Assembly (NCBI RefSeq): GCF_900182605.1
Contig: NZ_FXTB01000006.1
Coordinates: 186,001-250,000, forward strand
DNA from: Saccharicrinis carchari
GTDB lineage: Bacteria > Bacteroidota > Bacteroidia > Bacteroidales > Marinilabiliaceae
Length of the DNA: 64,000 bases
Direction of reading: 5' to 3'
Below are positions 5,189 through 21,677 of this stretch, piece after piece. The number at the start of each line of letters is the position of its first letter. The stretch's first letter is position 1. A program made the position numbers and the translations under genes. The notes under the pieces were generated by a model. That model was not told where the DNA came from, did not search any database, and was given only the letters and a program-made list of their open reading frames with translations.

Positions 5189-5194
5189 AACGTT

Positions 5195-6376
5195 ATGTCT
5201 AAAAAAAACCTAAAGAGATTAGACCTCATTTTCAAAAACGAACACGATGGCGAAAAAATACTGCTAAAAACATTGGCTCGCCCCTCACAGGAAATTGTTA
5301 ATGATTTAATTATATCGGGACTTAAAGGCCGGGGCGGTGCCGGATATCCCACAGGGTTAAAATGGAAACTGGCTTCGGAAGCAAAGGGTGAGATGAAATA
5401 TGTAATTTGCAATGCCGACGAGGGTGAGCCCGGAACATTTAAAGACAGAGAAATATTAAGTCAGGTACCCAATAAAGTTTTAGTTGGGATGGCAGTTTGT
5501 GCCAGGATAATAGGAGCCCATCAAGGCTTTATTTATTTGCGGGGAGAATATAAATTTTTAGTGCAACAGCTCAACGATGTTATTGACGATTTCCATGTTT
5601 GGATGAATAAAATGGGCATAGATTTTAGAGTAAAAATATTTTTAGGCAGTGGCGCTTATATTTGCGGCGAAGAAACTGCCCTCTTCGAAAGCATGGAAGG
5701 CTTCCGGGGTGAGCCTCGCAATAAACCTCCTTTTCCCACCCAATCGGGATACAGAGGTATGCCCACGGTAATTAACAATGTGGAAACATTGGCCCATACC
5801 TACTCCATTTTTAAATACGGCCCCGAGATGTTTAAAGATCTGGGGGTTCAGGATTCCAGAGGCTCCAAAGTTTTTTCGGTTTCGGGTGATACCCCCATAC
5901 CCGGTATTTACGAACTTGAGTTTGGTATGTCGGTACAAAAATTTGTAGAGGACTTTGGCGATGGCGATACCAAGGCGGTGCAAGTGGGCGGCGCTGCCGG
6001 CTTTTGTGTACCCCGAAAAAGGTTTGCTAACACAAAAATTGGCTATCAGGGTAAACTCACCGGCGAGTCCTTACCCACCGGGGGATCCATGATGATTTTT
6101 AATTCCTCACGAAGCATGTATAACGTACTACACAACTACCTCGATTTTTTTGTAGAAGAGAGCTGTGGCCAATGTACTCCTTGCCGTGTGGGTACGCAAC
6201 AATTATTGCTGGGTATTGAAGCAGTAAAAAAAGGAGAACGTCCCTCGGATTATTTAAATCGACTACTCGATCTGGCCGAAAATATGAGGGTGACAGCCAA
6301 GTGTGGACTGGGGCAGTCAGTGGCCAATTCTTTTTCGTCCATCGTAGAGAATTTTAAGGAAGAAATGATTTACTAA
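5195..6376 (+). CDS. hydB: Short NuoF-like FMN/NADH-binding subunit of hydrogenase set 1 (HydB type)
   Basis: The 393 residues cover only the NuoF core. A glycine-rich GRGGAGYPTGLKW segment (about 46-57) and CNADEGEPGTF (72-82) form the FMN/NADH site, and ICGEETALFESMEG follows. C324, C327, C330 and C370 bind the single 4Fe-4S cluster. Unlike the paralogue at 19864, it has no N-terminal 2Fe-2S thioredoxin domain and no C-terminal 2[4Fe-4S] ferredoxin. The subunit should oxidise or reduce NAD(P)(H) and exchange electrons with the flanking subunits in the cytoplasm. The missing domains bear on whether the complex can bifurcate electrons. Confidence 0.93.
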   Translation: MSKKNLKRLDLIFKNEHDGEKILLKTLARPSQEIVNDLIISGLKGRGGAGYPTGLKWKLASEAKGEMKYVICNADEGEPGTFKDREILSQVPNKVLVGMAVCARIIGAHQGFIYLRGEYKFLVQQLNDVIDDFHVWMNKMGIDFRVKIFLGSGAYICGEETALFESMEGFRGEPRNKPPFPTQSGYRGMPTVINNVETLAHTYSIFKYGPEMFKDLGVQDSRGSKVFSVSGDTPIPGIYELEFGMSVQKFVEDFGDGDTKAVQVGGAAGFCVPRKRFANTKIGYQGKLTGESLPTGGSMMIFNSSRSMYNVLHNYLDFFVEESCGQCTPCRVGTQQLLLGIEAVKKGERPSDYLNRLLDLAENMRVTAKCGLGQSVANSFSSIVENFKEEMIY

Positions 6377-6394
6377 TCGTTAAACACCAGGCAT

Positions 6395-8182
6395 ATGAAC
6401 AAAGTAAACCTTAACATAGACAATATACAGGTGAGCGTGGAACGGGATACCACCTTATTGAACGCCGCCAGCCAACTGAAAATAAAAATACCTACTTTAT
6501 GTTATCACGAAGATTTGTGTGTTGCCGGAAACTGTAGGGTATGCGTTGTTGAACAAGTGGGGAGCGATAGATTACTGCCCGCCTGTGCCACTCCCGTTTC
6601 GGAAGGCATGGAAATACGTACCAACAGCTTAAAGGTACGAAACGCCCGTAAAACCGTTATCGACTTGTTGGTATCGGAGCACAGGGCCGAGTGTACCCGT
6701 TGTTATAAAAATGGTAATTGCGAGCTTCAGCATCTTGCCTCCGAATACTTGATAGGTGAGGACAGTTATATCGATCTGGTTCCGCTGAAAGAATATACCA
6801 TCGACTACTTTTCGCCTTCCATTATTAAAGATGACTCCAAATGTATCCGTTGCCAAAGGTGTGTGCGCACTTGCGACGAACTGCAAGCTATAGGTGCACT
6901 CTCAGTCGCCTATAAAGGGGAAGATATGAAGGTATCCTCCTTTTTTGAGAAACCTATGTACGAGGTAATCTGTACCAATTGCGGACAGTGTGTGAACAGA
7001 TGCCCCACAGGAGCGCTGGTAGAGCATAATTACATCGACGAGGTCTGGGCTGCCATTAGTAATCCCAATAAACATGTGGTGGTTCAAACGGCACCTGCCG
7101 TACGCATTGCCTTGGGCGAAGCCCTGGGCATGCCTGCCGGTAAAATTGTTACAGGCAAAATGGTGAGTGCTTTGCGTCGCATAGGATTCAATTCAGTGTT
7201 GGATACCGACTTTACGGCCGACCTTACCATTATTGAGGAGGGCAACGAACTACTGCATCGTTTAAAAGCTGCTTTGGTTGACAAGAACCCCGATGTTCAT
7301 TTGCCCATGACCACGTCCTGCTCACCGGGATGGGTTAAATACATCGAACACATGTACCCCGAGTATCTGCCTAACGTTTCAACCGCCAAATCACCACAGC
7401 AAATGTTTGGTGCCCTGGCAAAAACCTATTATGCCAAAAAAATGAATATCGAACCCGAAGATATGGTATCGGTATCGGTAATGCCCTGTACTGCCAAAAA
7501 ATATGAAGCCAACCGCCCCGAGATGCATTCCAGTGGATATAAAGATGTAGATCTGGTGCTGACAACACGCGAGCTGGCCAAAATGATTCAGCAGGCAGGC
7601 ATCGATTTTGAAGCACTGGAAAACGAAGAGTTCGATTCTTTTATGGGTGTTTCATCCGGAGCCGGGGTTATTTTTGGAGCCACGGGAGGTGTGATGGAAG
7701 CCGCTCTGCGCACCGCCTACGAAGTGGTAACCGGACGCGAAGTACCTTTTAAAGGTTTAAACATAACCCCTGTGCGTGGCATGGACGAAGTAAAAGAGGC
7801 TACTATTAAAATAGAGGACGCACTACCTGAGTGGGACTTTTTAAACGGTGTAGAATTAAAAACTTGTGTTGCACACGGATTGGCCAACGCTAAAACGGTA
7901 ATGGACAAAGTAAAAAAAGGTGAAGCAAGTTATCATTTTATTGAGATAATGGCTTGCCCCGGTGGATGCCTGGGTGGAGGGGGACAACCCATACCTACCA
8001 ACGCCACCATACGCCGGCAGCGTAGCAAAGCCATTTACAGGGAGGATGTAGGAAAACCTATCCGAAAGTCACACGAAAATCCTGAAGTAGTGAAACTTTA
8101 CAAAGAATTCCTGAAAAAACCCCTGGGCCATAAGTCGCATGAATTGTTACATACCAGCTATATCGGAAGGAATAGGTATTAG
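6395..8182 (+). CDS. hydA: [FeFe]-hydrogenase catalytic subunit, set 1 (group A, NADH-linked), with Ser in the L1 motif
   Basis: The 595 residues run as follows: 2Fe-2S domain (C36, C47, C50, C64), His-Cys 4Fe-4S site (H96, C100, C103, C109), two 4Fe-4S clusters (C150-C160 and C193-C203), then the H-cluster domain and the small-subunit-like tail ending near residue 595. L2 is MPCTAKKYE (C365) and L3 is MACPGGCLGG (C521, C525). L1 reads T-S-C309-S310-P-G-W where the classical motif is TSCCPxW, so the usual cluster-ligand cysteine is serine. The enzyme makes or oxidises H2 with electrons from the NuoE/F-like partners upstream. About 60% of residues in the H-domain match the paralogue at 21678 by eye. 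Confidence 0.93.
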   Translation: MNKVNLNIDNIQVSVERDTTLLNAASQLKIKIPTLCYHEDLCVAGNCRVCVVEQVGSDRLLPACATPVSEGMEIRTNSLKVRNARKTVIDLLVSEHRAECTRCYKNGNCELQHLASEYLIGEDSYIDLVPLKEYTIDYFSPSIIKDDSKCIRCQRCVRTCDELQAIGALSVAYKGEDMKVSSFFEKPMYEVICTNCGQCVNRCPTGALVEHNYIDEVWAAISNPNKHVVVQTAPAVRIALGEALGMPAGKIVTGKMVSALRRIGFNSVLDTDFTADLTIIEEGNELLHRLKAALVDKNPDVHLPMTTSCSPGWVKYIEHMYPEYLPNVSTAKSPQQMFGALAKTYYAKKMNIEPEDMVSVSVMPCTAKKYEANRPEMHSSGYKDVDLVLTTRELAKMIQQAGIDFEALENEEFDSFMGVSSGAGVIFGATGGVMEAALRTAYEVVTGREVPFKGLNITPVRGMDEVKEATIKIEDALPEWDFLNGVELKTCVAHGLANAKTVMDKVKKGEASYHFIEIMACPGGCLGGGGQPIPTNATIRRQRSKAIYREDVGKPIRKSHENPEVVKLYKEFLKKPLGHKSHELLHTSYIGRNRY

Positions 8183-8479: not shown

Positions 8480-8734
8480 ATGCAAAACGAACATACCATT
8501 ACCATATGTCTGGGTAGCTCTTGCTTTGCACGGGGCAATAAGGAAATTTTAAATATCGTTAAAAGGTTTTTATCGGTGCACGAATTAGAGGAGTTGGTGT
8601 TTTTTAGGGGCGAATTGTGCAGCGGTAATTGCGAAAATGGCCCTATCCTAAAAATAGACAATGCGATGTACAGTCAAGTCAATTCCAATAATGTATTTCA
8701 GATATTGAACGAATACTTTAACGTAAACCACTAA
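8480..8734 (+). CDS. Stand-alone small 2Fe-2S thioredoxin-like protein
   Basis: The 84 residues match the C-terminal 2Fe-2S half of NuoE, without its helical N-terminus. The four ligands are C10, C15, C47 and C51 in the CLGSSC and CSGNC contexts. It ends 3 bp before the sensor-type hydrogenase gene, so the two are surely cotranscribed and this protein is a plausible electron donor or acceptor for it. Small proteins of this type accompany sensory [FeFe]-hydrogenase genes in other anaerobes. The cluster-binding call is from visible cysteines; the partnership is inferred from position. Confidence 0.85.
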   Translation: MQNEHTITICLGSSCFARGNKEILNIVKRFLSVHELEELVFFRGELCSGNCENGPILKIDNAMYSQVNSNNVFQILNEYFNVNH

Positions 8735-8737
8735 GGT

Positions 8738-10591
8738 ATGGCACAACTAATCAAAGGAAATAAGGATAAATGCAACCTTAGTTTCACCTGTATCAGAGTA
8801 TGCCCGGCAAAGGCCATAAAAATTGCCGATAACTATGCTAACATTATGCCCGACAGGTGTATAGGTTGTGGCAATTGCGTGGTGGTGTGTGCCCAAAAAG
8901 CCATTAGTTTCCGCAATCAGGTGGATACTGTGCGTAAAATGTTGAATAGTGATGTTAAGGTGGCCGCCATATGCGACCCCGCCATATCGGGCGAATTCGA
9001 CGATATATCCGACTACCGTAAGTTTGTAGCCATGATACGTGAGCTGGGTTTTAGCCTGGTGAGCGAAGTGGCATTTGGTGTTGATTTGGTTGCGCAGGAG
9101 TACAAAGAGCTGCTGGGCGATTTCCACGGTAAATACTACGTTAGCACGCATTGTCCGCCGGTTCGCTCGTACGTAGAAAAATATCGCCCCGGGCTGGTGG
9201 ATAACCTGGCTCCCATCGTACCCCCATTTGTGGCCATGGCCAAGGTGATGCATAAAAAATATGGCAGCGATGTTAAAGTGGTGTATATTAGCGCTTGTGT
9301 GGCGGCCAAAGATGAAGCTATGGCTTTTGCCCATACCGATGGTAAAATCGATGCAGTAATTTCCTTTCAAGAACTCCGAGCCATGTTTAAAGAGGATGAC
9401 ATTAATGAAGCCTCGGTAGAATACAGCGACTTTGATCCACCCGTAGGACGCAAAGGAGGTTTATATCCCATCAACCAGGGATTATGGCAGACGGTAGATA
9501 TGCAACAAGACTTACTGAATACCAACATCATATCTGTTGATGGACGAAATAATTTTTTGGGCTCCCTCAAAGAGTTTTCTGCCCATACTAACCTTAACCA
9601 AAACCTCGATCTGTATTATTGCGAGGGTTGTGTCATGGGGCCGGGCATGTCGCCCGGTGATAAAAAGTTTTTGCGTCAGTCTAATGTTGTCCGGTATGTA
9701 GAAAAACGCCTTAAAGTAATTGACAATACACTATGGGAAAAGGATATGAAGGAATTTAAGGACATTGATTTGAGCCGTAGCTTTAAAATAACCGACCGTA
9801 GACTCCCCCAACCCTCGGAGCAGGAAGTTCAACGCGTATTGCATGATATGGGCAAGAGTAATGTAGAGGACCAATTAGGTTGTGGCGCCTGCGGCTATCC
9901 CAGTTGCAAGGAGTTTGCAGTGGCCTACTGCCAGGGGCTCACCAATTTTGAGATGTGCTATTCCTACTCCTTAAAAACCTTGCACACCTACATCAATAAG
10001 GTTCACGCTGCTAACGAAAACTTAAAAAACACCAAGGAAGCCCTTAAAGAAAGTGAGGAAAAAGCACGCAAGGAAGAGCTGGCAGCCCGCGAGGCCGCAG
10101 AAACCATTACCGCCATGCTCAATAAAATAAGGGCAGGTATTGTTATGGTTGATGCCAGGCTGAATATCATCGAAGCTAATCTGAGCTTCGTGAATATGAT
10201 GGGCGAAGATGCTAAACAGCTTAACGAGATAATACCCGGATTAAAAGGAGCCGACATCAATACCTTTCTCCCCTTTGGTGCCATGTTCAGTACGGTATTG
10301 CAAACCGGACAAGAAATCATCAATCGCGACACCACTCAGGACGATGTCATACTAAACGTATCGGTGTTTACCATTAAAAAGCATCAAATTGTTGGTGGTA
10401 TCATCCGCGACCTTACCGCACCTGAGGTCCGACGCGAAGAGGTCATCAATCGGGCACGTTCCGTTATCCGCGACAATCTGCAAACAGTGCAGCAAATAGC
10501 CTTTTTGCTGGGTGAGAGCGCTTCAAAAACCGAAAAAGTATTAAGCTCCATCATCGAAGCACAAAAATTGGGAGACAGCCATGGAGGTTAA
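8738..10591 (+). CDS. Sensor-type [FeFe]-hydrogenase-like protein: ferredoxin + H-domain + Fe-S + coiled coil + PAS
   Basis: The 617 residues show a clear order. The N-terminal ferredoxin comes first; its second cluster is intact (C41, C44, C47, C51), but the first site has only C12, C18 and C22. An H-cluster domain (about 70-320) has diverged motifs: L1 is STHCPPV (C139, with H138 where the proton-transfer Cys usually sits), L2 is SACVAAKDE (C187) and L3 is YCEGCVMGPG (C295, C298, spacing CxxC). A Fes-type site follows (C382, C385, C390), then a charged coiled coil (about 415-450) and a PAS domain (about 455-560). Catalytic hydrogenases lack PAS domains, so a sensing role is likely. The stop overlaps the start of the SpoIIE phosphatase gene by 11 bp, suggesting translational coupling and a sensor-output pair. 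Confidence 0.88.
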   Translation: MAQLIKGNKDKCNLSFTCIRVCPAKAIKIADNYANIMPDRCIGCGNCVVVCAQKAISFRNQVDTVRKMLNSDVKVAAICDPAISGEFDDISDYRKFVAMIRELGFSLVSEVAFGVDLVAQEYKELLGDFHGKYYVSTHCPPVRSYVEKYRPGLVDNLAPIVPPFVAMAKVMHKKYGSDVKVVYISACVAAKDEAMAFAHTDGKIDAVISFQELRAMFKEDDINEASVEYSDFDPPVGRKGGLYPINQGLWQTVDMQQDLLNTNIISVDGRNNFLGSLKEFSAHTNLNQNLDLYYCEGCVMGPGMSPGDKKFLRQSNVVRYVEKRLKVIDNTLWEKDMKEFKDIDLSRSFKITDRRLPQPSEQEVQRVLHDMGKSNVEDQLGCGACGYPSCKEFAVAYCQGLTNFEMCYSYSLKTLHTYINKVHAANENLKNTKEALKESEEKARKEELAAREAAETITAMLNKIRAGIVMVDARLNIIEANLSFVNMMGEDAKQLNEIIPGLKGADINTFLPFGAMFSTVLQTGQEIINRDTTQDDVILNVSVFTIKKHQIVGGIIRDLTAPEVRREEVINRARSVIRDNLQTVQQIAFLLGESASKTEKVLSSIIEAQKLGDSHGG

Positions 10592-11774
10592 AGAACCAGA
10601 TTTTTTTCTCGACATCGACTGCCAGCAAAATAACCATTTTGGCGAATACATCTGTGGCGATGTGTTTCTTTCCCGCCGAATCAAAGAGGATGCACGCACC
10701 ATTGTGGTTCTTTCGGATGGAATGGGCAGTGGCGTTAAAGCCAATGTGCTGGCCACCCTAACCGCATCCATGGCCGTCAACTTTACCGTGGAACACAAAG
10801 AGGTGCAGCGAACAGCCGAAATTATAATGAACACCTTACCGGTATGCAGCGTGCGTAAGGTGAGCTACTCTACTTTTACCATCATTGATATCGACGATGA
10901 GGGAAGCACTACCATTGTGGAGTACGACAATCCTCGTTGCCTTATTATGCGCAGCCATCGTCCGTTCGATCCGGGATGGAACGAGATTACCCTCGATAGT
11001 AAACGCAACAAAGGAAAAAAACTACATACCTGCCATTTTCAGGCCCGCAAGGAGGACCGGATATTTTTTTGGTCGGATGGCATTGTTCAATCGGGTATGG
11101 GTAGCAAAACACTGCCCTTTGGCTGGGGACGCGACGAAGCCGAACTGTATGTGATTAAAAGTGTTAAAAACACCCCATTTATCGCCTCGGCCAAACTGTC
11201 GCGCAAAATTGTTAATATGGCTTCACTCAACGATGGAGGCAGCCCGCTGGACGACACTTCCTGCGGCATTATCTATCTGCGCGAACCACGCAGACTCCTG
11301 TTTGTAACAGGGCCCCCTTTCGATGAAAAAACAGATGTAGACTTTGCCTTGAAAGTACAACGTTTTGGTGGAAAAAAAATAGTGAGCGGAGGAACAACAG
11401 CCGAAATTATAGCTCGCGAACTGGGTCTGAAATTTTCCTCGGGGCTTGATATGTCCGATCCGGACCTGCCCCCTACTGCACAAATGGAAGGTATTGATTT
11501 GGTTACCGAAGGAATACTCACCTTGGGCAAGGTAGTGCGGATAATGGAGCATTTTGATAAAAACAGCACCCTTGGCAAAGGACCGGCAAATCAAATTGTA
11601 AAGCTTTTTTTAGAGAGCGACAAAATACAAATCATCAATGGAACACGCATCAACGTAGCCCATCAGGACCCCAGCTTACCTGTAGAGCTCGAAATACGGC
11701 GCACCGTGGTCAAACGTATCGCCCACCTGCTCGAGAGTAAGTTCCTGAAAGAAGTTTCAATGGAGTATATATAG
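10581..11774 (+). CDS. SpoIIE-type PP2C serine/threonine phosphatase with uncharacterised C-terminal domain
   Basis: Residues about 10-235 are a SpoIIE/PP2C phosphatase domain. DGMGSGVKAN carries the metal-binding aspartate, IFFWSDGIVQ a second, and LDDTSCGII the last. Residues 236-397 form a further domain beginning with RRLLFVTGPPFDE and containing GGTTAEIIARELG, which I do not recognise. SpoIIE phosphatases dephosphorylate anti-anti-sigma or similar switch proteins. The start codon lies inside the PAS-hydrogenase gene, so the two are coupled. Together with the RsbW-like ATPases at 14429 and 18471, it makes a partner-switching type of circuit likely, although no STAS antagonist is seen in the cluster. 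Confidence 0.88.
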   Translation: MEVKEPDFFLDIDCQQNNHFGEYICGDVFLSRRIKEDARTIVVLSDGMGSGVKANVLATLTASMAVNFTVEHKEVQRTAEIIMNTLPVCSVRKVSYSTFTIIDIDDEGSTTIVEYDNPRCLIMRSHRPFDPGWNEITLDSKRNKGKKLHTCHFQARKEDRIFFWSDGIVQSGMGSKTLPFGWGRDEAELYVIKSVKNTPFIASAKLSRKIVNMASLNDGGSPLDDTSCGIIYLREPRRLLFVTGPPFDEKTDVDFALKVQRFGGKKIVSGGTTAEIIARELGLKFSSGLDMSDPDLPPTAQMEGIDLVTEGILTLGKVVRIMEHFDKNSTLGKGPANQIVKLFLESDKIQIINGTRINVAHQDPSLPVELEIRRTVVKRIAHLLESKFLKEVSMEYI

Positions 11775-11789
11775 TGCATTTAAGAAAAC

Positions 11790-12070
11790 CCGGTATTTTT
11801 TGAGTGGCTCGATAAAAAAGCAACCAACGCAAATGCCGTCATCATGCAGCCACAACCTGGTTTTAGGAAATGTAGGAAAGTTTACAATAATCGACAGCTC
11901 ACCTGATTGTGCCGCATCCCTTCCCGCATAACCGGCTTCACTGAATTGCAGAGGCTTTTTACTATCGGTAAAAACCTGGGTTCTTCCTCCACCGAGTGCC
12001 ACCCTAAGTAGCGCCAGGAGTAATCCTCAAGCTTCAAATCCCACCCAAAGCCGCCCCACTCCAAGCCTCA
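11790..12070 (-). pseudogene. Possible frameshifted gene remnant, family unknown
   Basis: This lies within a 446-bp stretch (11775-12220) that has no intact gene. Two minus-strand frames look protein-like and join near 12002. The upstream frame reads EWGGFGWDLKLEDYSWRYL; after a shift the downstream frame continues with GGGRTQVFTDSKKPLQFSE and FPKTRLWLHDDGICVGCFF. The composition is that of a folded protein rather than random translation, but I cannot name a family and there is no clear start. It could also be chance. The rest of the interval shows nothing I can identify apart from the leader of the pirin gene. Confidence 0.25.
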
Positions 12071-12220
12071 ATAGAACAAAGCTCAAAGTATTATGTTATT
12101 GAGATAAAACATTTAAAGCACAAGTAAGATGGAACAGGGCCCTTAATGGCCGGTTCTATCATACTCCTGAATTTGAAGGAGCCAATCGAATACCAATAAA
12201 GAACAAATATTTGTAATAAG

Positions 12221-13099
12221 ATGAAAATAAAAACAGTAGAACAAGTTGTAAGCCCCATGCAACCGCATTTTGTGGGCGATGGCTTTCGGGTTCATAATTT
12301 TATCCCCAGCGTTAAGGGCTTAAGCATGCAGAGAATGGATCCATTTATACTGATGGACTATAATTCCAAATTTTTTTTCCCGCCAGCCGACAAACCAAGA
12401 GGAGTTGGCGTTCACCCCCATAAAGGCTTTGAAACGGTTACCATAGCTTATCAGGGAAAAGTAGCTCACCACGATAGTAGTGGCGGCGGTGGTGTAATAG
12501 GCCAGGGCGATATTCAATGGATGACGGCCGCAAGCGGTGTGTTGCATAAAGAATATCACGAAGAGGAATGGAGTAAGCAAGGGGGCGATTTTCAGATGGT
12601 GCAACTTTGGGTAAACCTACCAAAAAAAGACAAAGAAAGTACACCTAAATACCAAGCTATAAAACACAGCGATATCAAGTGCTATCAACTGGAAGGTAAG
12701 CAAGGTGAAGTTAGGGTTATAGCCGGCGAATACAAAGGTGTGTTAGGCACCGCCTCTACTTTTACACCCATTCACATGTTCAATGCAAAACTAAAAAAAG
12801 AGGGCACAACTGACTTTACGTTCCCTGCCAATTATAACACAGCACTGTTAGTAATTGAAGGCAGCATAACGATAAACGATAACACTAAAGCACCCACCAA
12901 CCATTTTGTGCTCATGGCCAACGATGGCGAAAAATTTAAAATAAAAGCTACTGATGATGCATTAGTACTGGTTTTAAGCGGGCACCCCATCAACGAACCC
13001 ATTGCAGCTCAAGGTCCTTTTGTGATGAATACGAAAGCAGAGTTACAACAGGCCTTCCATGATTTCAACTCCGGCAAATATGGCTATTTGGAAGATTAA
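12221..13099 (+). CDS. Pirin family protein
   Basis: The 292 residues form a bicupin of the pirin type. The N-terminal cupin (about 20-130) has the HPHKGFETVTI metal-binding segment followed by DSSGGGGVIGQGDIQWMTAASG and HKEYHEE, which supply the His/Glu ligands. The C-terminal half is a second, more diverged cupin. Bacterial pirins bind Fe or other metals, and some have quercetinase activity; the natural role here is unknown. The gene stands alone between the signalling genes, followed by a 14-bp perfect hairpin. Confidence 0.92.
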   Translation: MKIKTVEQVVSPMQPHFVGDGFRVHNFIPSVKGLSMQRMDPFILMDYNSKFFFPPADKPRGVGVHPHKGFETVTIAYQGKVAHHDSSGGGGVIGQGDIQWMTAASGVLHKEYHEEEWSKQGGDFQMVQLWVNLPKKDKESTPKYQAIKHSDIKCYQLEGKQGEVRVIAGEYKGVLGTASTFTPIHMFNAKLKKEGTTDFTFPANYNTALLVIEGSITINDNTKAPTNHFVLMANDGEKFKIKATDDALVLVLSGHPINEPIAAQGPFVMNTKAELQQAFHDFNSGKYGYLED

Positions 13100-13124
13100 A
13101 GCAACAACGCTTTCACCACTCCTT

Positions 13125-13167
13125 TTAGCCTGCCCTATTCATAAAATCTACGGATAGGGCAGGCTAA
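13125..13167. terminator. Perfect 14-bp hairpin after the pirin gene (REP-like core)
   Basis: TTAGCCTGCCCTAT at 13125-13138 pairs perfectly with ATAGGGCAGGCTAA at 13154-13167 across a 15-base loop. There is no T-run. It may act as a terminator or as an mRNA-stabilising hairpin. It shares the 10-mer GGGCAGGCTA with the palindromes at 14351-14394. Confidence 0.6.
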
Positions 13168-13234
13168 CGATATTATCTGCAATATTCCATCATTTTTCAT
13201 ATCTTTAATGCTTATGAAATTTGGTTTTTTGATA

Positions 13235-13265
13235 GGGTCAGGAATAAGATGGGGTCAGGAATAAG
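13235..13265. repeat. Two-copy direct repeat, period 17
   Basis: GGGTCAGGAATAAG occurs at 13235-13248 and again at 13252-13265. It lies just upstream of the small acetyltransferase gene. Function unknown. Confidence 0.6.
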
Positions 13266-13294
13266 TTATAAGAACCAGTACTAAAAACATCTAA

Positions 13295-13591
13295 ATGCAT
13301 AACACTATGGCAAAGATAAAACATGAGGACAATGGTAAACAAGGACGCTTTGTAATTTATGAAAAGGACATTTTTGCAGGCAAAATGACTTATACCTGGG
13401 CCGGAGAAACTCAATTTATTATTGAGCACACCACCGTGGAAGCTAAGTTTACCGGTAAAGGTCTGGGTAAGCAAATGGTAATGGAGGCGGTAAAATTTGC
13501 GCGTAAAAAGAAGGCCAAAATTACCGCCCGATGCTCTTATGCTGCCAAAGTACTTGAATCCGACGACAGCATAAATGATGTTAGGGGATAA
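13295..13591 (+). CDS. Small GNAT-type N-acetyltransferase (YjdJ/Gcn5-like)
   Basis: The 98 residues match the compact GNAT proteins of about 90-100 residues. A beta-strand FVIYEKDIFAGKMTYTW is followed by the acetyl-CoA loop FTGKGLGKQMV, helix MEAVKFARKKKAKI, and the C-terminal CSYAAKVLES strand with a conserved cysteine. The second Met at 13307 could be the start, since homology begins at MAKIKHED. The substrate is unknown. It stands apart from the hydrogenase signalling genes in function and may be an insertion into that region. Confidence 0.8.
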   Translation: MHNTMAKIKHEDNGKQGRFVIYEKDIFAGKMTYTWAGETQFIIEHTTVEAKFTGKGLGKQMVMEAVKFARKKKAKITARCSYAAKVLESDDSINDVRG

Positions 13592-13919
13592 ATTACTATT
13601 CTCAATGGGAGTTTAATTTACATTATGTAGGAACTAAGTCATGGTTGAAAGATACAAGCAACTCATAACTCCCTTTGCCCAATTTATGCTTCTCCAAGTC
13701 AAAATCAAAGTCATTCCCCAAACCCCTCACCACCCCCTATTGCTAACATTTCTCTTTTTCTTCTAATCCGATCGTATCTCGCCGCTATTCCTGGCCATTT
13801 CCATTTATTTCTATTTGCCCTATTTAGACTGATTATGTATTACAGCATACATGATAATCCCCGTTTTTTTTTTGAAGGATACATTGTATTTTACAAGTGA
13901 TTAACGAATAGTTTCTTTA
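13592..13919. other. Intergenic region, no gene seen
   Basis: These 328 bp are AT-rich with a pyrimidine-rich central part and have stop codons in all frames. A run of T (13863-13873) precedes the DRTGG gene. I see no RNA gene, repeat or clear promoter. Confidence 0.5.
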
Positions 13920-14264
13920 ATGAAAATAAAAGAGATTGCGGATATACTGGATGCCCAGGTGGTATGTGGTTCGGAATATTTAGAAAACGAGATAACCCGT
14001 GGTTTTGCCAGCGATTTAATGAGCGACGTACTAACCTTAGATACCGATAAGGTGGTACTGATAACCGGCTTGGCTAATGTACAAACCATCCGAACCGTAG
14101 AAATGTCGGAAATTAATTGCATTGTGTTTGTGCGTAACAAGCAGGTAACACCGCAAATGCTGGAACTGGCGGGCATGGAAGGTTTAGTACTAATACAATG
14201 TAAATATTCCATGTTTAAAGCTGTGGGCAAGTTATACGAGGCAGGTTTGTTACCCGTTTATTAA
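13920..14264 (+). CDS. DRTGG domain protein 1
   Basis: The 114 residues form a single DRTGG domain: MKIKEIADILDAQVVCG, then E-I-T-R-G-F-ASDLMSDVL, a VVLITGL strand and IVFVRNKQVTPQMLELA. DRTGG domains occur as regulatory parts of phosphotransacetylase and CBS/DHH proteins and as solo proteins beside sensory [FeFe]-hydrogenase genes. The ligand is not known; a nucleotide is possible. The protein is paralogous to the one at 16551 (for example SDLMSDV against SDLLSDV). Context suggests it is a switch or ligand-binding element of the hydrogenase signalling cluster. Confidence 0.85.
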   Translation: MKIKEIADILDAQVVCGSEYLENEITRGFASDLMSDVLTLDTDKVVLITGLANVQTIRTVEMSEINCIVFVRNKQVTPQMLELAGMEGLVLIQCKYSMFKAVGKLYEAGLLPVY

Positions 14265-14350
14265 AGCATTATGAAACGCGCCATAGCCTGCTCTTCGAAA
14301 GCGGAGAGAATACTTCTCACAAAGAGGGACTGATTAGTTTGGGAGAGTTC

Positions 14351-14394
14351 CCCCGATAAAAAATCGGGGCAGGCTATCCCGCAATGGCGGGATA
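14351..14394. repeat. Tandem palindromes (REP-like element)
   Basis: Two adjacent hairpins stand before the ATPase gene: CCCCGAT (14351-14357) with ATCGGGG (14363-14369), then TATCCCGC (14375-14382) with GCGGGATA (14387-14394). The linking GGGCAGGCTA recurs in the hairpin at 13125-13167. Confidence 0.65.
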
Positions 14395-14428
14395 AGTTAG
14401 TGGCAATTAAAAAAGAATATCTAGACAC

Positions 14429-14839
14429 ATGAAATTTGTTTATGAAGTAGAGGGAGGAGATTTTTCCAAGGCGGGCAACGCTGCAAGTGGCGTAAAAAAA
14501 GTACTGAAACAACTGAACGTAAATCCTAAAGTGATTAAACGAACAGTGGTAGCCTTGTACGAAGCCGAAGTTAATATAGTGGCTCATGCCTACAAGGGTA
14601 CCATAAACATTAACATTAACACAGCAGATATATCTATTGTTTTGGATGATGAAGGGCCCGGCATACCCGATATTGAACTGGCCATGCGCGAGGGCTTCTC
14701 AACAGCATCCAGTGAAGTACGTGAAATGGGTTTCGGTGCAGGGATGGGGCTTCCCAATATAAAAAAGAATGTAGACGAGCTTAAGGTGAGCAGCATAGTA
14801 AACAAAGGAACCAAAGTAGAGATGAAAACTAATTTATAG
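14429..14839 (+). CDS. RsbW-like anti-sigma-type ATPase (HATPase_c_2)
   Basis: The 136 residues are a GHKL ATPase of the RsbW/SpoIIAB kind: an EAEVNIVAHAY N-box, DDEGPGIPDIELAM (G1 box) and the glycine-rich FGAGMGLPNIKKNVDEL lid (G2). Such proteins are serine kinases and sigma-factor binders that are counteracted by SpoIIE-type phosphatases; one is encoded at 10581. The usual STAS phospho-acceptor partner is not visible nearby, so the substrate may be unconventional. Position inside the cluster supports a role in the hydrogenase signalling relay. Confidence 0.87.
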   Translation: MKFVYEVEGGDFSKAGNAASGVKKVLKQLNVNPKVIKRTVVALYEAEVNIVAHAYKGTINININTADISIVLDDEGPGIPDIELAMREGFSTASSEVREMGFGAGMGLPNIKKNVDELKVSSIVNKGTKVEMKTNL

Positions 14840-15190
14840 AACTTGTAAGATTCCTATGAAACAAAAAAATACCAATGACGGCTAATAATTGACATAGATA
14901 ATGTTTACGAGAATTGACGAATTCTTTTTTTGATGGATTTTTAGTTTTATAAATTATTCGAAACGTGCAACATGAAATATTTTCTTTGCTTCGTTTCTTT
15001 TATCACGAAAAAAAAATGAAGAGCCCCCTCCGGCTAAAGGAGAGTAGAGGGGGACACATAGCTTAAAAGGTTTCAAGTGAATGATTGCCGTATTTCTATA
15101 GCCATACCCTCTCCCTGCAAGTCTTTTCTAACGTTAGGGAAAGACTAAAGAGCGTATTTGTATAATCTGTTAAGAGAACCATCAACGCAA
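14840..15190. other. Intergenic region with hairpins
   Basis: There is no coding potential. CCCCCTC (15024-15030) pairs with GAGGGGG (15047-15053). Closer to the next gene, AGTCTTT (15120-15126) pairs with AAAGACT (15140-15146) around the palindrome CTAACGTTAG (15128-15137). The second hairpin ends 45 bp before the hydrogenase-like start codon and could act in the leader. Confidence 0.5.
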
Positions 15191-16564
15191 ATGAAAAAGC
15201 AACAAATATATCATGCCTTAAAGGTTGACAAAGATATTTGTTACGGATGCACCCATTGCATGAGTGTGTGCCCTACCGATGCTATTCGTATAAACAAGGG
15301 TAAAGCGTTGATACTCAAAAAGCGATGCGTAGATTGTGGCGAATGTCTTAAGGCCTGCCCCGTAGATGCCATTTATGTAGAGCAGGACGATTGGGACAAT
15401 ATATTTGATTATGAATGCCGCGTGGCACTGGTACCGGCAGTTTTTACAGGTCAGTTTCCTACTTCCATTTCCGAAGAGGAGATATTTAGCATTATGAAGG
15501 AATTGGGCTTTACCCATGTTTTTCAGGCCGAATTTATGGTGGATGTTATCAATGGCCTCATGAACGACCAGATGCAGTCGAAAGCCGAAAAGCCCCTGAT
15601 ATCCACCTTTTGTCCTTCCGTTGTTCGACTCATACAGGTCAAGTTTCCATCGCTGATCGATAATATAGCCTCGGTAAAACCACCGGTAGATGCTTCGGCG
15701 GCTTTTTATCGCAAGTTGTTGGCTACTCAAGGCGTGCCCGAAAAAGAAATAGGTATTTTTTATATTACCCCTTGTGCTGCTAAAATTGCTGCCCTCAAAG
15801 GCATAAACAATGATGAAGATACAGTGATAAACGGGGTAATTAATATGCGCTACCTCTACAATAAACTATATACCCGAATAAAAAATAACAAAACAGGAAC
15901 CAGCCAACTTCCCGTCCTTCCTCATCTGTCCGCAAAAGCTACGCAATGGAGTTTAACGCGTGGCGAAACCGATAACATGAAGGGTACCTGCCTTGCCGTG
16001 GACGAAATACATAATGTAATAGAGTTTTTAGAGCTTCTGGAAAATGAGGAGATTCCAACGGTAGATTACCTGGAGTTGCGTGCCTGCGATCAAGGCTGTG
16101 CCGGAGGGGTGCTGCTACATGGCAACCGCTTTTTAACCGTAGAAAGAATGAAACTGAGAGCAAAGCAGTTAGAAAGTGAAAACGGCGATGTGGATTGGAA
16201 AGCGCATAATGACATTATTGAAGATAAAGATTTATTTATAAGTAAGGTAAATCCCTTGCCAGCCATGGCGCTGGATACAGATTTTTCAAAAGCCTTAAAA
16301 AAAATGGAACGCATCCGAAACCTGATGTGCTATTTACCGGGTATCGATTGTGGTGCCTGTGGATCGCCCCATTGCCAGGCTTTGGCCGAAGATGTAGTGC
16401 AACGCAAAGCCAACCTGAGTAACTGTGTTTTTTTACAGCGGATGATGGAAAAAAGCAATAAGCTAAGTAGTGAGCACGCCATTCGTATCATTGAAAAAAC
16501 ATGGGGCAAAGACAGATTGAGTAAGGACTGTAAAAAGTTAGGAGCTAAAAATGAAGGTATGTGA
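15191..16564 (+). CDS. Second H-cluster-like Fe-S protein (sensor-type [FeFe]-hydrogenase family), no PAS domain
   Basis: Counting from the ATG at 15191 (457 residues; the frame is open from a TTG at 15158), there is a complete 2[4Fe-4S] ferredoxin (C17, C20, C23, C27; C46, C49, C52, C56). An H-cluster-like domain follows: L1 is STFCPSV (C141, with F140 at the proton-transfer position), L2 is TPCAAK (C195) and L3 is RACDQGC (C299, C303). A C-terminal Fes-type site GIDCGACGSPHC and a late NCVF cysteine complete it. It has no output domain of its own. The 3' end overlaps the second DRTGG gene by 14 bp, which ties the two functionally. Catalysis is doubtful; redox or H2 sensing, or electron transfer, is more likely. 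Confidence 0.87.
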   Translation: MKKQQIYHALKVDKDICYGCTHCMSVCPTDAIRINKGKALILKKRCVDCGECLKACPVDAIYVEQDDWDNIFDYECRVALVPAVFTGQFPTSISEEEIFSIMKELGFTHVFQAEFMVDVINGLMNDQMQSKAEKPLISTFCPSVVRLIQVKFPSLIDNIASVKPPVDASAAFYRKLLATQGVPEKEIGIFYITPCAAKIAALKGINNDEDTVINGVINMRYLYNKLYTRIKNNKTGTSQLPVLPHLSAKATQWSLTRGETDNMKGTCLAVDEIHNVIEFLELLENEEIPTVDYLELRACDQGCAGGVLLHGNRFLTVERMKLRAKQLESENGDVDWKAHNDIIEDKDLFISKVNPLPAMALDTDFSKALKKMERIRNLMCYLPGIDCGACGSPHCQALAEDVVQRKANLSNCVFLQRMMEKSNKLSSEHAIRIIEKTWGKDRLSKDCKKLGAKNEGM

Positions 16565-16889
16565 TTTGGTCGATCAACTCGACTTAAAAGTATTTTGTGG
16601 TAATCAAGGCATCAACAATTCTGTGCTTGGCGCTTATGTGTCCGATTTACTAAGCGATGTGATGGGCAACGTAGATGAAAACCAAGTATGGATTACCCTG
16701 CAAACCCACAAAAACGTTGTGGCTATCGCTTCTTTAAAAGAGGTAGCAGCCATCATTCTGGTTAAAGGCCACGAGCCCGAGCAAGCAGCCCGGGAACAAA
16801 GCAACCAGGAAGGCATCCCCATATTGGGAACCAAACTGGAAACCTTTGAAATAGCCGGCAAATTATATGCGCTGTTAGAAAAAAGATAA
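16551..16889 (+). CDS. DRTGG domain protein 2
   Basis: This 112-residue protein is a solo DRTGG domain (MKVCDLVDQLDLKVFCG, SDLLSDVMGN, QVWITLQTH, IILVKGHEPEQAA). It parallels the protein at 13920, with the same fold elements at the same positions. The start codon lies inside the preceding H-cluster-like gene (14-bp overlap), so translation is probably coupled. The two DRTGG copies each neighbour a different signalling protein, which suggests specialised ligands or partners. The precise role is unknown. Confidence 0.85.
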   Translation: MKVCDLVDQLDLKVFCGNQGINNSVLGAYVSDLLSDVMGNVDENQVWITLQTHKNVVAIASLKEVAAIILVKGHEPEQAAREQSNQEGIPILGTKLETFEIAGKLYALLEKR

Positions 16890-16937
16890 TAAAAATTAAC
16901 GCGGTGTCCCTGTGCCACTGTGTTCATTTGTCTTTAT

Positions 16938-16961
16938 ACTTGATACTAAAAACTTGATACT
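16938..16961. repeat. Two copies of ACTTGATACT before the PHP gene
   Basis: ACTTGATACT is found at 16938-16947 and 16952-16961, a 14-bp period, ending 8 bp before the PHP start codon. The same 9-mer core CTTGATACT occurs at 23676-23684 and in reverse orientation at 23468-23476. Confidence 0.6.
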
Positions 16962-16969
16962 CATTTACA

Positions 16970-17737
16970 ATGAAAAACTATCGGGTCGATCTACATATCC
17001 ATACGGTACTTTCGCCCTGCGCGAACTTGCAGATGAGCCCCGATGTGATTGTTGAGCGGGCCCTGGAACAACAGTTAGACATCATAGGCATTGCCGACCA
17101 TAACAGCACCAAACAGTGCGAAGTGATACGACAGATGGGCCACGAAGTAGGATTAACGGTTTTATGTGGTGCCGAAATAAACACCAAAGAAGAGGTGCAT
17201 TGCCTTACGTTCTTTGAAGATAGCAACCAACTCAACCAATTTCAGCAATATCTGGACACACATCTCCCCAGGATAAAAAATAAACCGGAGTTGTTCGGCG
17301 ACCAGGTTTGGGTAGATAAAGACAATAATATTTTAGGCGAAGAACTAAGACTGTTGATTGTGGGTTTGGATGCATCGATTGACGAAGTGAACAGAAAAGT
17401 AGCCGAGTTGGGCGGATTGTTTATTCCGGCACACGTGGATAAACCCCGTAACAGCATATCCAGTCAATTGGGTTTTTTACCTGGCAATCTTACTGTTTCG
17501 GGAGTTGAGCTCAGCGCCAATGCTAATATGGAAGCGTTTAAAAATAAACATCCGTGGATAAAAAAATATAGCCTTATCACCAATTCCGACGCCCATATAC
17601 CGGAACAGATTGGGAGCAGTTATACCATAATGCAATTGCAGGAATCATCGTTTAATGAAGTGAAAATGGCCTTGAAAAACGAAACCGGAAGACGGGTATT
17701 GAGTATAATGAAAAAAGGAGAGCGTTATGGAGTATGA
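16970..17737 (+). CDS. PHP domain metal-dependent phosphoesterase
   Basis: The 255 residues have the PHP signature: DLHIHTVLSPC near the N-terminus, GIADHNS, GAEINT, a central FIPAHVDKP histidine and the C-terminal TNSDAHIPEQIG motif. These ligate up to three metal ions in a TIM-like barrel. The closest known types hydrolyse phosphoesters such as 3',5'-bisphosphonucleosides or histidinol phosphate; the substrate here is unknown. Solo PHP proteins recur in the gene clusters of sensory [FeFe]-hydrogenases in anaerobes, so it may produce or remove a small-molecule signal bound by the DRTGG proteins. That link is an inference. Confidence 0.87.
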   Translation: MKNYRVDLHIHTVLSPCANLQMSPDVIVERALEQQLDIIGIADHNSTKQCEVIRQMGHEVGLTVLCGAEINTKEEVHCLTFFEDSNQLNQFQQYLDTHLPRIKNKPELFGDQVWVDKDNNILGEELRLLIVGLDASIDEVNRKVAELGGLFIPAHVDKPRNSISSQLGFLPGNLTVSGVELSANANMEAFKNKHPWIKKYSLITNSDAHIPEQIGSSYTIMQLQESSFNEVKMALKNETGRRVLSIMKKGERYGV

Positions 17738-17801
17738 TGCTGTATATAATTAATTTAGACGGATCAGATACGAATAGCTGTAATCTTGTAAAATATAAAA
17801 A

Positions 17802-18464
17802 ATGAAGAATATAATCTTACTTTCTATTTTAGTTCTGTTTTCTATCAGCTGCGTAACTACAAAAAAATACGCCTCCATTGTTGATCCAAAAACAAAAGAC
17901 GTAAGAGCGGAGTCTAACTTAAATGATTGGTTACTTGTACATACAGAACAGGCAGAGCCGCAGCAAACTAAATACAACCAAAAGAAAAATTCATTTGTAC
18001 CGGCCATTTTTTATTGGGGATGGAACTCCACCATCGAATGTGAATTGGATTTTAACACACGATTGGAATACGTGAGAAATGGAATTTATAGGGCTGCAGA
18101 TAGTCTTGATTTGAAACAGTATGCAGGTGATAAAAAAATAGAAATTAAATTGAAGGATATCCCCGGCAAGTTTCTGTACGAAAATAAAGGCAACACAATT
18201 ATTGTAGTGGTTGCCTATGCGGTAAGTGTGTTTGAAGCAATAAGTCCCTATCCAATAAATCTCACATACGATTACACAATTACAAACAATGGAGAATCGA
18301 ATGCTCAGGGTGAAGGATCTATTCAAAACAAAGAGCAACCGTTAGGGAACAGAAAGCATTCTACCAAAAAATTTACTTGGATGTACCTGGACGAATATAA
18401 AAAAGAAACCGACAGAATGGGGGTTGAACTTGTAAAAGACTTGATTAACGAATTAAAATCTTAA
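17802..18464 (+). CDS. Predicted lipoprotein, function unknown
   Basis: The 220-residue product begins with a short lipoprotein signal (MKNIILLSILVLFSISC, lipidated Cys at 17) followed by a Thr/Lys-rich linker and a mixed alpha/beta domain without motifs I recognise. It is exported, unlike its soluble cytosolic neighbours, yet it sits only 6 bp before the HATPase gene and 64 bp after the PHP gene. It may be a late insertion into the signalling cluster or an envelope component of it. No function is assigned. Confidence 0.7.
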   Translation: MKNIILLSILVLFSISCVTTKKYASIVDPKTKDVRAESNLNDWLLVHTEQAEPQQTKYNQKKNSFVPAIFYWGWNSTIECELDFNTRLEYVRNGIYRAADSLDLKQYAGDKKIEIKLKDIPGKFLYENKGNTIIVVVAYAVSVFEAISPYPINLTYDYTITNNGESNAQGEGSIQNKEQPLGNRKHSTKKFTWMYLDEYKKETDRMGVELVKDLINELKS

Positions 18465-18470
18465 AAAAAC

Positions 18471-19019
18471 ATGCGCGACATATCCATGCACCTACTTGAT
18501 ATAGTCGGAAATTCGGTCAGAGCCGGAGCCGCACTCGTTGAGGTGTCCGTCATTGAAAACACGAACGAGGATACCATGGTGTTGATCGTTAAGGATAACG
18601 GTTGCGGCATGGATAAGGAAACAATTGCAAAGGCGATGGATCCCTTTTTTACTTCGCGCACTACCCGTAAGGTGGGGATGGGCATTCCCCTGTTACAGCA
18701 AAACGCACAACTAACAGGTGGAAACGTGCTTATTGAGTCGCAACCGGGAAATGGAACTTTACTTACCGCTACATTTATCCGTTCGCATATAGACAGGCCG
18801 CCTATGGGTGATTTACCCGGAACCCTAAGCCTGATGGTAGCAGGAAACCCCAATGTCGATTTTTGTTTTACGTACCGTATAAATGAACAGGAATATATAT
18901 TTAATAGCCGCTCAGTAAAAAGCGTGCTCGATGGTGTTGAAATAAGCCAAGCCCCAGTTATAAAATTTATAAAAGAAATGATAAACGAAAACCTAACGGA
19001 AATTGGAGTGGAGATGTGA
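18471..19019 (+). CDS. GHKL ATPase / histidine-kinase-like ATP-binding protein
   Basis: The 182 residues carry the GHKL boxes: LLDIVGNSVRAGA (N box, with Asn), VKDNGCGMDKETI (G1), DPFFTSRTT (F box) and VGMGIPLLQQNAQLTGG (G2), up to about residue 105. The F box resembles that of sensor kinases and MutL-type ATPases rather than RsbW. Residues 110-182 are an extra alpha/beta segment (LSLMVAGNPNVDFCFTY...) of unknown role. No phospho-acceptor histidine domain is present. It closes the signalling cluster, and its GHKL type differs from that of the ATPase at 14429. Confidence 0.85.
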   Translation: MRDISMHLLDIVGNSVRAGAALVEVSVIENTNEDTMVLIVKDNGCGMDKETIAKAMDPFFTSRTTRKVGMGIPLLQQNAQLTGGNVLIESQPGNGTLLTATFIRSHIDRPPMGDLPGTLSLMVAGNPNVDFCFTYRINEQEYIFNSRSVKSVLDGVEISQAPVIKFIKEMINENLTEIGVEM

Positions 19020-19443: not shown

Positions 19444-19854
19444 ATGGCAAAAGTAAAAACCTTAGATGATCTAAAAAAGATGAGAGAAGGACTTCAGTCG
19501 AAGATTAGCCTTCGTGAAAACAGCGATCGTCCCGAAAAATTAGTTCAGATAAAAGTGTCGATGGCCACCTGCGGCATTGCTTCAGGGGCCAAGGAAACCA
19601 TGAGTTATCTGATTGAAGAGTTAGATAATAGAGCCCTGGATGCGGTGGTAACACAAACGGGCTGCATGGGCTATTGCCACTCCGAACCCACCATCGAGGT
19701 GCACGTACCCGGAACCGATCCGGTGGTATATGGCGATGTAGATATTAAAAAGGCCGAGGAGATCATTACCAAGCACATCATTGGTGGTGAGTTGGTCGAT
19801 GGTATAATACCTGCCGCCTATAAAACATCAAACGAACATCGTAACGAAAAATAA
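19444..19854 (+). CDS. hndB: HndB-like small 2Fe-2S-type subunit of hydrogenase set 2
   Basis: The 136 residues have a helical N-terminus and a thioredoxin-like C-terminal half. The visible cysteines are C43 (MATCGIASGA), C74 and C78 (TGCMGYC). One of the four usual NuoE ligands is absent, since the position after the first Cys is Ser/Gly. That pattern is usual for the HndB/HydD-type accessory subunit of tetrameric [FeFe]-hydrogenases, so it need not mean loss of function. Set 1 has no counterpart. The gene is the first of the set 2 operon, 9 bp before the NuoF-like gene. Confidence 0.85.
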   Translation: MAKVKTLDDLKKMREGLQSKISLRENSDRPEKLVQIKVSMATCGIASGAKETMSYLIEELDNRALDAVVTQTGCMGYCHSEPTIEVHVPGTDPVVYGDVDIKKAEEIITKHIIGGELVDGIIPAAYKTSNEHRNEK

Positions 19855-19863
19855 TTCAGCGCT

Positions 19864-21657: not shown

Positions 21658-21677
21658 CCAATTTAAAGATCATAGCA

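Follow-up and report, generated by a model that had tools for sequence, protein, structure and literature searches.

What do the genes between two [FeFe]-hydrogenase operons of Saccharicrinis carchari do, and do they work as one circuit? They lie in a stretch of 64,000 nucleotides (contig NZ_FXTB01000006.1, positions 186,001 to 250,000 of the forward strand), the whole of which is called the window here. A preliminary description had proposed a single hydrogen or redox circuit that adjusts which hydrogenase is made. We find two modules, A and B, joined between two NADH-linked-type [FeFe]-hydrogenases, with a non-standard [FeFe]-hydrogenase homologue at the head of each (HydS1 and HydS2). The modules are independent and joined end to end, and are not one circuit. 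Judged by sequence, module A is of a known kind, and module B, built around a sensor of group D type, is widely conserved and kept in two phyla. The locus is composed as follows.

4658..8182 (+): hydrogenase operon 1, with NuoE (4658-5188), a short NuoF (5195-6376) and HydA1 (6395-8182)
8480..8734 (+): small thioredoxin-like [2Fe-2S] protein (PF01257), module A
8738..10591 (+): HydS1, module A, with Fe_hyd_lg_C and FeS above cut-off
10581..11774 (+): SpoIIE/PP2C-type phosphatase by Pfam match, module A, overlapping HydS1
12221-13099 (+): pirin by Pfam match, in neither module
13295-13591 (+): GNAT-like gene by Pfam match, in neither module
13920..14264 (+): DRTGG1, module B, at 25.1 bits just below the Pfam cut-off of 25.2, its fold backed by structural comparison
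14429..14839 (+): SpoIIAB/RsbW-like GHKL kinase, module B, TIGR01925 at 61 bits, under the cut-off of 135
15191..16564 (+): HydS2, PAS-less putative sensory [FeFe]-hydrogenase homologue by Pfam and alignment, module B
16551..16889 (+): DRTGG2 by Pfam match, module B
16970..17737 (+): PHP-domain phosphoesterase by Pfam, module B, with its His/Asp/Glu pattern retained
17802..18464 (+): putative lipoprotein of no known family, outside the module, its lipobox judged by eye
18471..19019 (+): HK/MutL-type (histidine-kinase/MutL) GHKL ATPase with an extra C-terminal domain, at the border of module B and hydrogenase operon 2
19444..24205 (+): hydrogenase operon 2, with bifurcating HydABC-type subunits, namely 2Fe-2S (19444-19854), long NuoF (19864-21657), HydA2 (21678-23453) and NuoE (23684-24205), all (+)

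The genes listed in the preliminary description are all open frames on the plus strand between the two hydrogenase operons, with the domains as named, but the pirin and the GNAT-like gene had been missed. HydS2 is real as well, though its start is probably the ATG at 15191 instead of the TTG at 15158, because the starts of relatives fall near there. The frames of HydS1 and SpoIIE share 11 bases and those of HydS2 and DRTGG2 share 14. The genome's only four PF02906 matches (HydA1, HydA2, HydS1 and HydS2) and its only two DRTGG matches at E<=0.001 (DRTGG1 and DRTGG2) are all in this stretch.

Neighbourhoods were compared in 40 stretches of relatives, picked for HydS1 or HydS2 matches and searched with profiles of the window genes. 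HydS1, SpoIIE, DRTGG1 and HydS2 occur together in 21 of the 40, all of the same family, so the co-location of the two modules is not due to chance. In the stretches long enough to display it, the order is nuoE-nuoF-hydA, 2Fe-2S, HydS1, SpoIIE, DRTGG1, RsbW and HydS2, followed by DRTGG2, PHP, GHKL, 2Fe-2S, nuoF, hydA and nuoE. Pirin, GNAT and lipoprotein genes were rejected as module parts, with matches in 0, 1 and 0 of the 40, respectively. The only GNAT match is on a contig that ends before a pirin could show (L021), and the lipoprotein, earlier counted as a cluster member, is seen here only.

Either module is also found alone. Two genomes of the same genus, both 100% complete (G001 and G004), have module B and no SpoIIE match, and module B without module A is seen in the stretches of the order-level relatives L036, L038 and L040. 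Module A occurs in G014 and G017, genomes without any HydS2 match of ortholog strength, and at the Ruminococcus albus locus, where the plasmid pRUMAL01 only is concerned. Neither SpoIIE nor HydS1 is matched in any of 80 Clostridia-type module B stretches of 3.6–21 kb.

These distributions bear on the single circuit, which could be pictured as partner switching with SpoIIE acting against the RsbW-like kinase on a shared DRTGG or STAS substrate and both HydS proteins feeding in. SpoIIE and the kinase do adjoin here and in the 21 relatives' stretches, and the genome has four STAS matches above cut-off elsewhere. However, SpoIIE is missing beside the kinase in all 80 Clostridia-type stretches and in G001 and G004, while it occurs without RsbW or DRTGG at the R. 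albus locus and in the stretches of G014 and G017. The cluster itself lacks a STAS or sigma gene, none being among the Pfam matches of its genes. We regard one circuit as quite improbable, and SpoIIE and RsbW were rejected as a pair. Two inputs as such are borne out by the presence of two different sensory-hydrogenase homologues.

Module A (2Fe-2S, HydS1 and SpoIIE) matches the sensory-hydrogenase operon of R. albus and is, by sequence, probably a member of HydDB group C3. The R. albus 7 locus on pRUMAL01 is ordered as Rex, adhE, phosphotransferase, 2Fe-2S, 2Fe-2S, HydS, overlapping SpoIIE and a 4Fe-4S dicluster protein that is HydA by PF02906-type motifs. The order of 2Fe-2S, HydS and overlapping SpoIIE is the same in the window. 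The SpoIIE proteins share 34% identity across 398 positions. This extends into a conserved C-terminal part (residues about 235-397) that has no Pfam name and is present in R. albus too. HydS1 is 28% identical to HydS with the C-terminal Cx2Cx4Cx16C in common, and the 2Fe-2S protein is 29% identical over 76 positions to the equivalently placed gene. The window operon differs in having neither Rex nor adhE, in adjoining a trimeric NADH-linked-type hydrogenase and in the L3 spacing of HydS1, Cx2C versus Cx3C.

The phosphatase gene in the same operon that marks group C3 would be the overlapping SpoIIE, and HydDB is reported to label such proteins C3, 'phosphatase-linked (putative)' (PMC5037454). 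Grouped with C3 and the R. albus HydS as the closest known systems of module A is HfsB of Thermoanaerobacterium. Within the hfs operon, the 2Fe-2S protein is encoded by hfsA and the phosphatase by hfsC. Deletion of hfsB, which has also been made in C. thermocellum, reportedly alters the ethanol yield in Thermoanaerobacterium and others (PMC5707799), and the R. albus sensory-hydrogenase gene cluster is reported to go down 111-fold in co-culture (PMC6776011). That sensory-hydrogenase genes adjoin hydrogenases, as first described, is supported, and module A is arranged as in R. albus.

In SpoIIE, the residues D46, D166, D224 and D225 are present in 31 of 31 aligned sequences. HydS1 consists of N-terminal Fe-S motifs, an H-domain, the C-terminal Cx2Cx4Cx16C cluster motif (C382, C385, C390 and C407, invariant in 15 aligned) and a PAS region. 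It had been described as an H-cluster-like PAS protein; the H-domain and FeS part stands above cut-off, but the PAS matches (PAS_9 at 19.8 bits and PAS_8 at 18.3 bits) are both below the Pfam cut-off and weak by sequence. All four H-cluster cysteines are kept in 14 of the 15 aligned, and the window protein has His at 299 and Ser at 353. Mechanistically, HydS1 would sense H2 or redox state and act via the PAS region on the overlapping SpoIIE.

The L3 cysteines of HydS1 are spaced Cx2C in 29 of 30 Bacteroidota copies, a count in which L059 is a fragment and L042 is without any of the four H-cluster cysteines, and Cx3C in the Clostridia HydS of L061, L064 and L065. Among kinase-fused HydS proteins, Cx2C is found also in L044 and L161, and a CC pair in L042, L045 and L046 permits either reading. 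The HydS1 copy of L042 without the four cysteines (4231-6174, minus strand) keeps the C-terminal cluster motif and an adjoining SpoIIE. In several relatives, a further SpoIIE locus includes a pair of PF02906 proteins, in frames of about 570–585 and 483–490 amino acids (G005:C40, G007:C231, G003:C118, G008:C209, G016:C21 and G019:C66).

How widely is module B kept? Clostridia-type loci were collected by scanning a genome collection with aligned HydS2 sequences, the first of them from Subdoligranulum, and the best 80 of 534 confirmed places were taken. These lean to Subdoligranulum kin, with titles of Oscillospiraceae, Ruminococcus, Clostridia and the like, and one 'Bacterium D16-76'. DRTGG1, RsbW, HydS2, DRTGG2 and PHP follow in this order at 73 of the 80. 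The other seven are missing one or two genes at the expected place (L069, L078, L081, L101, L115, L139 and L143); five are at or near contig ends, which do not account for L078 and L143, and L143 reaches five genes only by counting another PHP gene upstream. Both nuoF and GHKL accompany module B in 49 of the 80 stretches, though the short length of many stretches limits this count.

In 299 genomes drawn evenly from the Clostridia phylum, HydS2 (E<=1e-50) is found in 120 and DRTGG (E<=1e-19, with 13 weaker matches dropped) in 132, and all 120 HydS2 genomes carry DRTGG. The HydS2 search scored about five candidates per genome, so HydS2 is possibly undercounted. The co-occurrence has a Fisher p of 2.6e-70, a statistic that ignores relatedness. 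Distance correlations among the module B genes are 0.44–0.77 with shared descent uncontrolled, and no weight is given to them. A tree was built of HydS2 sequences, 31 from Bacteroidota and 80 others; the Bacteroidota make one group with support 1.0, therefore showing no recent transfer from the sampled Clostridia. A Bacteroidetes host is nothing special, as HydS2 (E<=1e-90) is in 35 of 61 genomes searched, that of the window included.

HydS2 and its module fit the putative sensory group D (M2e) by sequence features. Its eight N-terminal cluster cysteines, four H-cluster cysteines and C-terminal Cx2Cx4Cx16C (C398, C401, C406 and C423) are all kept in 14 of 14 aligned, and the same set is invariant in 12 of 12 of a second alignment including a Clostridia member. 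Invariant in the 14 are T204, F151 and the H-cluster cysteines C152, C206, C310 and C314. In CpI numbering assigned by motif, HydS2 has Thr at 353 and no Cys at 299. No PAS match was obtained in the Pfam search.

The group D model TamHydS reportedly stands next to an HK-like ATPase and has a bifurcating hydrogenase downstream, and its signalling route is left open there (PMC8163306). Compared by these reported features, HydS2 likewise appears without PAS and with two N-terminal clusters, Cx2Cx4Cx16C, no Cys299 and Thr353, upstream of a trimeric bifurcating-type hydrogenase and adjoining an HK-like ATPase. The TamHydS residues C20 and C379 (PMC13104023) match C21 and C380 in L063, a homologue from Subdoligranulum, both being offset by one position. 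The AraC neighbour reported for TamHydS is not seen at the window locus.

Does HydS2 hold an H-cluster and read H2? Alternatively, HydS1, HydS2 or both would hold Fe-S clusters only and report redox state or ferredoxin. This agrees with the Cx2C spacing of HydS1 and with the L042 copy that lost its four H-cluster cysteines; the Bacteroidota L3 loop is one residue shorter, so the H-cluster of their HydS1 is uncertain from the sequence. It agrees also with G074, which has HydS2 and no HydG match. On the other side, the four H-cluster cysteines are invariant in the aligned HydS2, and TmHydS and TamHydS are reported to take up [2Fe] (PMC10055695 and PMC8163306). We find the Fe-S-only alternative rather doubtful.

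Maturases were counted in genomes whose sole PF02906 match is HydS2-like and in others. The 99% complete G037 has HydS2 and a single PF02906 match in its whole genome, of HydS2-like strength, and G071, G074 and G075 have one match each in frames of HydS2 size. HydG is above cut-off in three of these four (G037, G071 and G075) and HydF in G037, whereas HydF is above cut-off in 1 of 14 relatives without a PF02906 match (G040). It is not above cut-off in 5 of 47 PF02906-bearing genomes (G022, G039, G045, G053 and G058). This pattern fits an H-cluster on HydS2, with evidence that is weak or mixed.

Several counts run the other way. G040 keeps HydF and HydG though it has no PF02906 match, so a hydrogenase may drop out of an assembly or maturases persist without one. 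G048, also without PF02906, has a full-length HydF-like match of 245 bits, below cut-off. Of 21 genomes, 7 show no HydG match; six of these, from Clostridia, carry a catalytic HydA, and therefore assembly gaps matter. The maturase Fisher p of 0.019 is only a hint, as it mixes HydF with HydG and two phyla and omits G048.

The residues of the other module B proteins are as strictly kept, counted with one sequence per locus passing length and score filters, where the 'Firmicutes' group includes the Bacteroidota record L062. The kinase has Glu45 and Asn49 of the N-box in 110 of 110, with a spacing as in SpoIIAB. Asp32 and Ser35 are present in 111 of 111 for DRTGG1 and 108 of 108 for DRTGG2. The PHP protein keeps His9, His11, Asp43, His44, Glu69, His77, His155, Asp207 and His209 in 103 of 103. 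The parallel to SpoIIAB/RsbW partner switching is a SpoIIAB-like kinase with the Glu/Asn N-box and small partner proteins with an invariant Ser, but module B is without a STAS protein, sigma factor and PP2C, and its partners have the DRTGG fold.

In the predicted model of DRTGG1 (mean predicted local distance difference test score, pLDDT, of 91.3), Ser35 opens a helix of residues 34-39 after a strand of 27-30. Structure comparison of the model gave DRTGG domains and HPrK N-domains as the best solved matches. TM-scores are 0.84 with the AF1212 DRTGG and, by query length, 0.73–0.76 with the DRTGG/CBS region of the Clostridium perfringens pyrophosphatase and 0.67–0.70 with the HPr kinase N-domain. 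Unlike in the latter two, the window DRTGG is free-standing and kinase-paired, and D-x-x-S replaces the family-naming residues. A divergent STAS was rejected with DRTGG, HPrK and Mur ligase on top and no STAS among the best 50 of 942 matches.

A serious rival to phosphorylation is that DRTGG1 and DRTGG2 have a small ligand, such as a nucleotide, and regulate the kinase instead of being its substrates, with PHP destroying the ligand. Among solved structures the nearest are DRTGG domains, one being the regulatory CBS-DRTGG region of the pyrophosphatase; the kinase can be fused to a CBS pair in genomes in which HydS2 is not found; and PHP scores, below cut-off, to nucleotide-acting PHP families among others. 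However, the D-x-x-S that is invariant in both paralogues equally resembles a phospho-site, no ligand is known, and the fusion of DRTGG1 with RsbW suits either reading. We take ligand binding as possible rather than probable.

The fusions point to likely partners. They come from 27 further stretches that were selected because of a long frame, additional DRTGG copies or a DRTGG but no HydS2, and that cover part of the long frames. DRTGG1 and RsbW are in a single frame at five loci (L162, L163, L164, L165 and L166), HydS2 and DRTGG2 at two (L161 and L186) and RsbW and HydS2 at one (L187). Both parts are found by Pfam in L161, L162, L163, L186 and L187, and by our own profiles in L164–L166.

The sensor looks exchangeable, as suggested by 12 genomes with DRTGG in which HydS2 is not found, nine of them covered by stretches (G169, G286 and G370 being left out). 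Two of the 12, G196 and G229, have the RsbW part fused with a CBS pair. L172 and L179 retain DRTGG1, CBS-RsbW, DRTGG2, PHP and GHKL, and L173 has DRTGG1, CBS-RsbW and a 2Fe-2S protein followed by RnfC (Pfam) and more Rnf genes (by eye). Only DRTGG1, RsbW, DRTGG2 and GHKL are present in L181 (G088) and L184 (G238). In L182 (G115), DRTGG1-RsbW is alone, with a Rex-type gene (Pfam) and NfnAB-like genes (by eye) at a distance of about 0.7 kb. The locus of G315 is interrupted by a contig end. All in all, the DRTGG1–kinase pair looks like the core, with HydS2 as one of at least two exchangeable sensors.

Module B would thus act as follows. HydS2 would hold an H-cluster, read H2 or redox state and, as the fusions suggest, change the activity of the RsbW/SpoIIAB-like kinase in a complex with it. 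DRTGG1 would be the direct partner of the kinase and DRTGG2 that of HydS2, and the kinase may act on either or both at Ser35. The PHP enzyme might reverse or remove the kinase product, and the GHKL ATPase may have a role beside it. The output would tune electron disposal, with hydrogenase or Rnf as putative regulated targets. As a whole, two independent sensory modules with this mechanism are the explanation that we consider fairly probable. Its broader form, a so far undescribed type of signalling unit, is tentative: a SpoIIAB-like kinase that phosphorylates the invariant serine of a free-standing DRTGG where others act on STAS, gated by an exchangeable sensor (group D hydrogenase reading H2, or CBS pair) and reset by PHP where others have PP2C, might govern electron disposal of many anaerobes by hydrogenase, Rnf or others.

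A number of points weigh against this mechanism. The case for module B is built on sequences and a structure model. The modelled fold of DRTGG1 is that of DRTGG/HPrK-N, unlike the STAS fold of the known substrates of such a kinase, and therefore the phospho-acceptor idea rests on the invariant Ser, which lies in the least sure block of the model (residues 31-40, mean about 70). The Pfam matches of PAS and DRTGG1 fall below cut-off. Some fusions may be assembly or frame artefacts, and L164 and L165 look like close kin. In G116 (L175), HydS2 and PHP are in broken frames only, and G084 and G211 have DRTGG2 beside hydABC with no DRTGG1-RsbW in the stretch, which misfits a fixed core.

Module B could instead help the bifurcating hydrogenase in its assembly, repair or electron transfer, and not be a signalling unit. 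Its company with GHKL and nuoF in the 49 Clostridia-type stretches would suit such a role. However, a Parabacteroides distasonis record (L062) has six genes, DRTGG1 (59% identical to the window), RsbW (68%), HydS2 (57%), DRTGG2, PHP and GHKL (42%), flanked by genes for an aminopeptidase and a TPR protein, and its 21 kb stretch contains no hydrogenase gene. Moreover, the sole PF02906 match is HydS2-like in size or strength in G037, G071, G074 and G075, and the core recurs without HydS2 beside the Rnf genes of L173. The hydrogenase aid is unlikely to us. In view of the P. distasonis record and G037, the earlier claim of adjusting which hydrogenase is made is not supported as worded, as far as module B is concerned.

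In the open-licence literature of PubMed Central, no paper was found that describes the partner genes of module B (DRTGG with hydrogenase or anti-sigma, RsbW, PHP and group D), while module A is already a known kind. By what route PAS-less sensory [FeFe]-hydrogenases relay their signal is a question posed in the work on TamHydS (PMC8163306). Likely partners of a group D-type sensor can now be named: a kinase and a pair of DRTGG proteins, which accompany HydS2 in two phyla and are in some cases fused to it. The signalling question becomes testable with six genes, including the P. distasonis version without an adjoining hydrogenase. In rumen anaerobes, the proportions of ethanol, acetate and H2 have been proposed to depend on H2 sensing (PMC6776011). 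The modules may serve bacteria to sense hydrogen or redox state and relay the signal.

Operon 2 is of the electron-bifurcating HydABC type by domain content, with NuoF having N-terminal 2Fe-2S and C-terminal Fer4, HydA having PF02906/PF02256, and NuoE. In operon 1, HydA1 scores 884.9 bits against NF040763 (cut-off 765) and the short NuoF has no 2Fe-2S or Fer4 match. Rex-type sites near the operons were rejected, with four weak matches in all, 0 in 4658-24205 and 6.0 expected by chance. The lipoprotein has no match in Pfam or NCBIfam. The GHKL ATPase has a conserved C-terminal domain at residues about 103-182, for which no convincing structural match was found; whole-protein matches (MutL, PMS2 and topoisomerase VI-B) are at a root-mean-square deviation of >5. 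A STAS match at 1066-1320 of the window (G000:C6:187066-187320) is within a 534-amino-acid frame, perhaps a SulP-type transporter.

Other HydS fusions occur in relatives. In the order-level relatives, a HydS-like H-domain and FeS part is fused to HisKA-HATPase (L042:10647-12632, L044:6620-8599 on the minus strand, L045:12124-14151 and L046:10915-12912) with a receiver-HisKA-HATPase protein and nuoF-hydA genes nearby; these resemble the histidine-kinase-linked group C1, which is not in the window. Near module B of two Clostridia-phylum genomes are a HydS-kinase fusion with PAS, HisKA and HATPase by Pfam (L161:10472-12772, minus) and a HydS-GHKL fusion by our own profiles (L186:9646-11979, minus), the latter adjoining a sigma-54-type response regulator (L186:8266-9639, minus). 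A lone DRTGG1-like gene (L174:5323-5724) lies near multihaem-cytochrome-like and pyridoxal/serine-type genes (by eye) in G290, which also has HydS2.

In the window, a gap of ~350 bases (14840-15190) separates RsbW from HydS2, and the spacing is only about 10–20 bases in the genus relatives L022 and L024-L026. The gap contains a hairpin-like CCCCCTC...GAGGGGG at 15024, which was rejected as a repeated element, being a single copy within the window.

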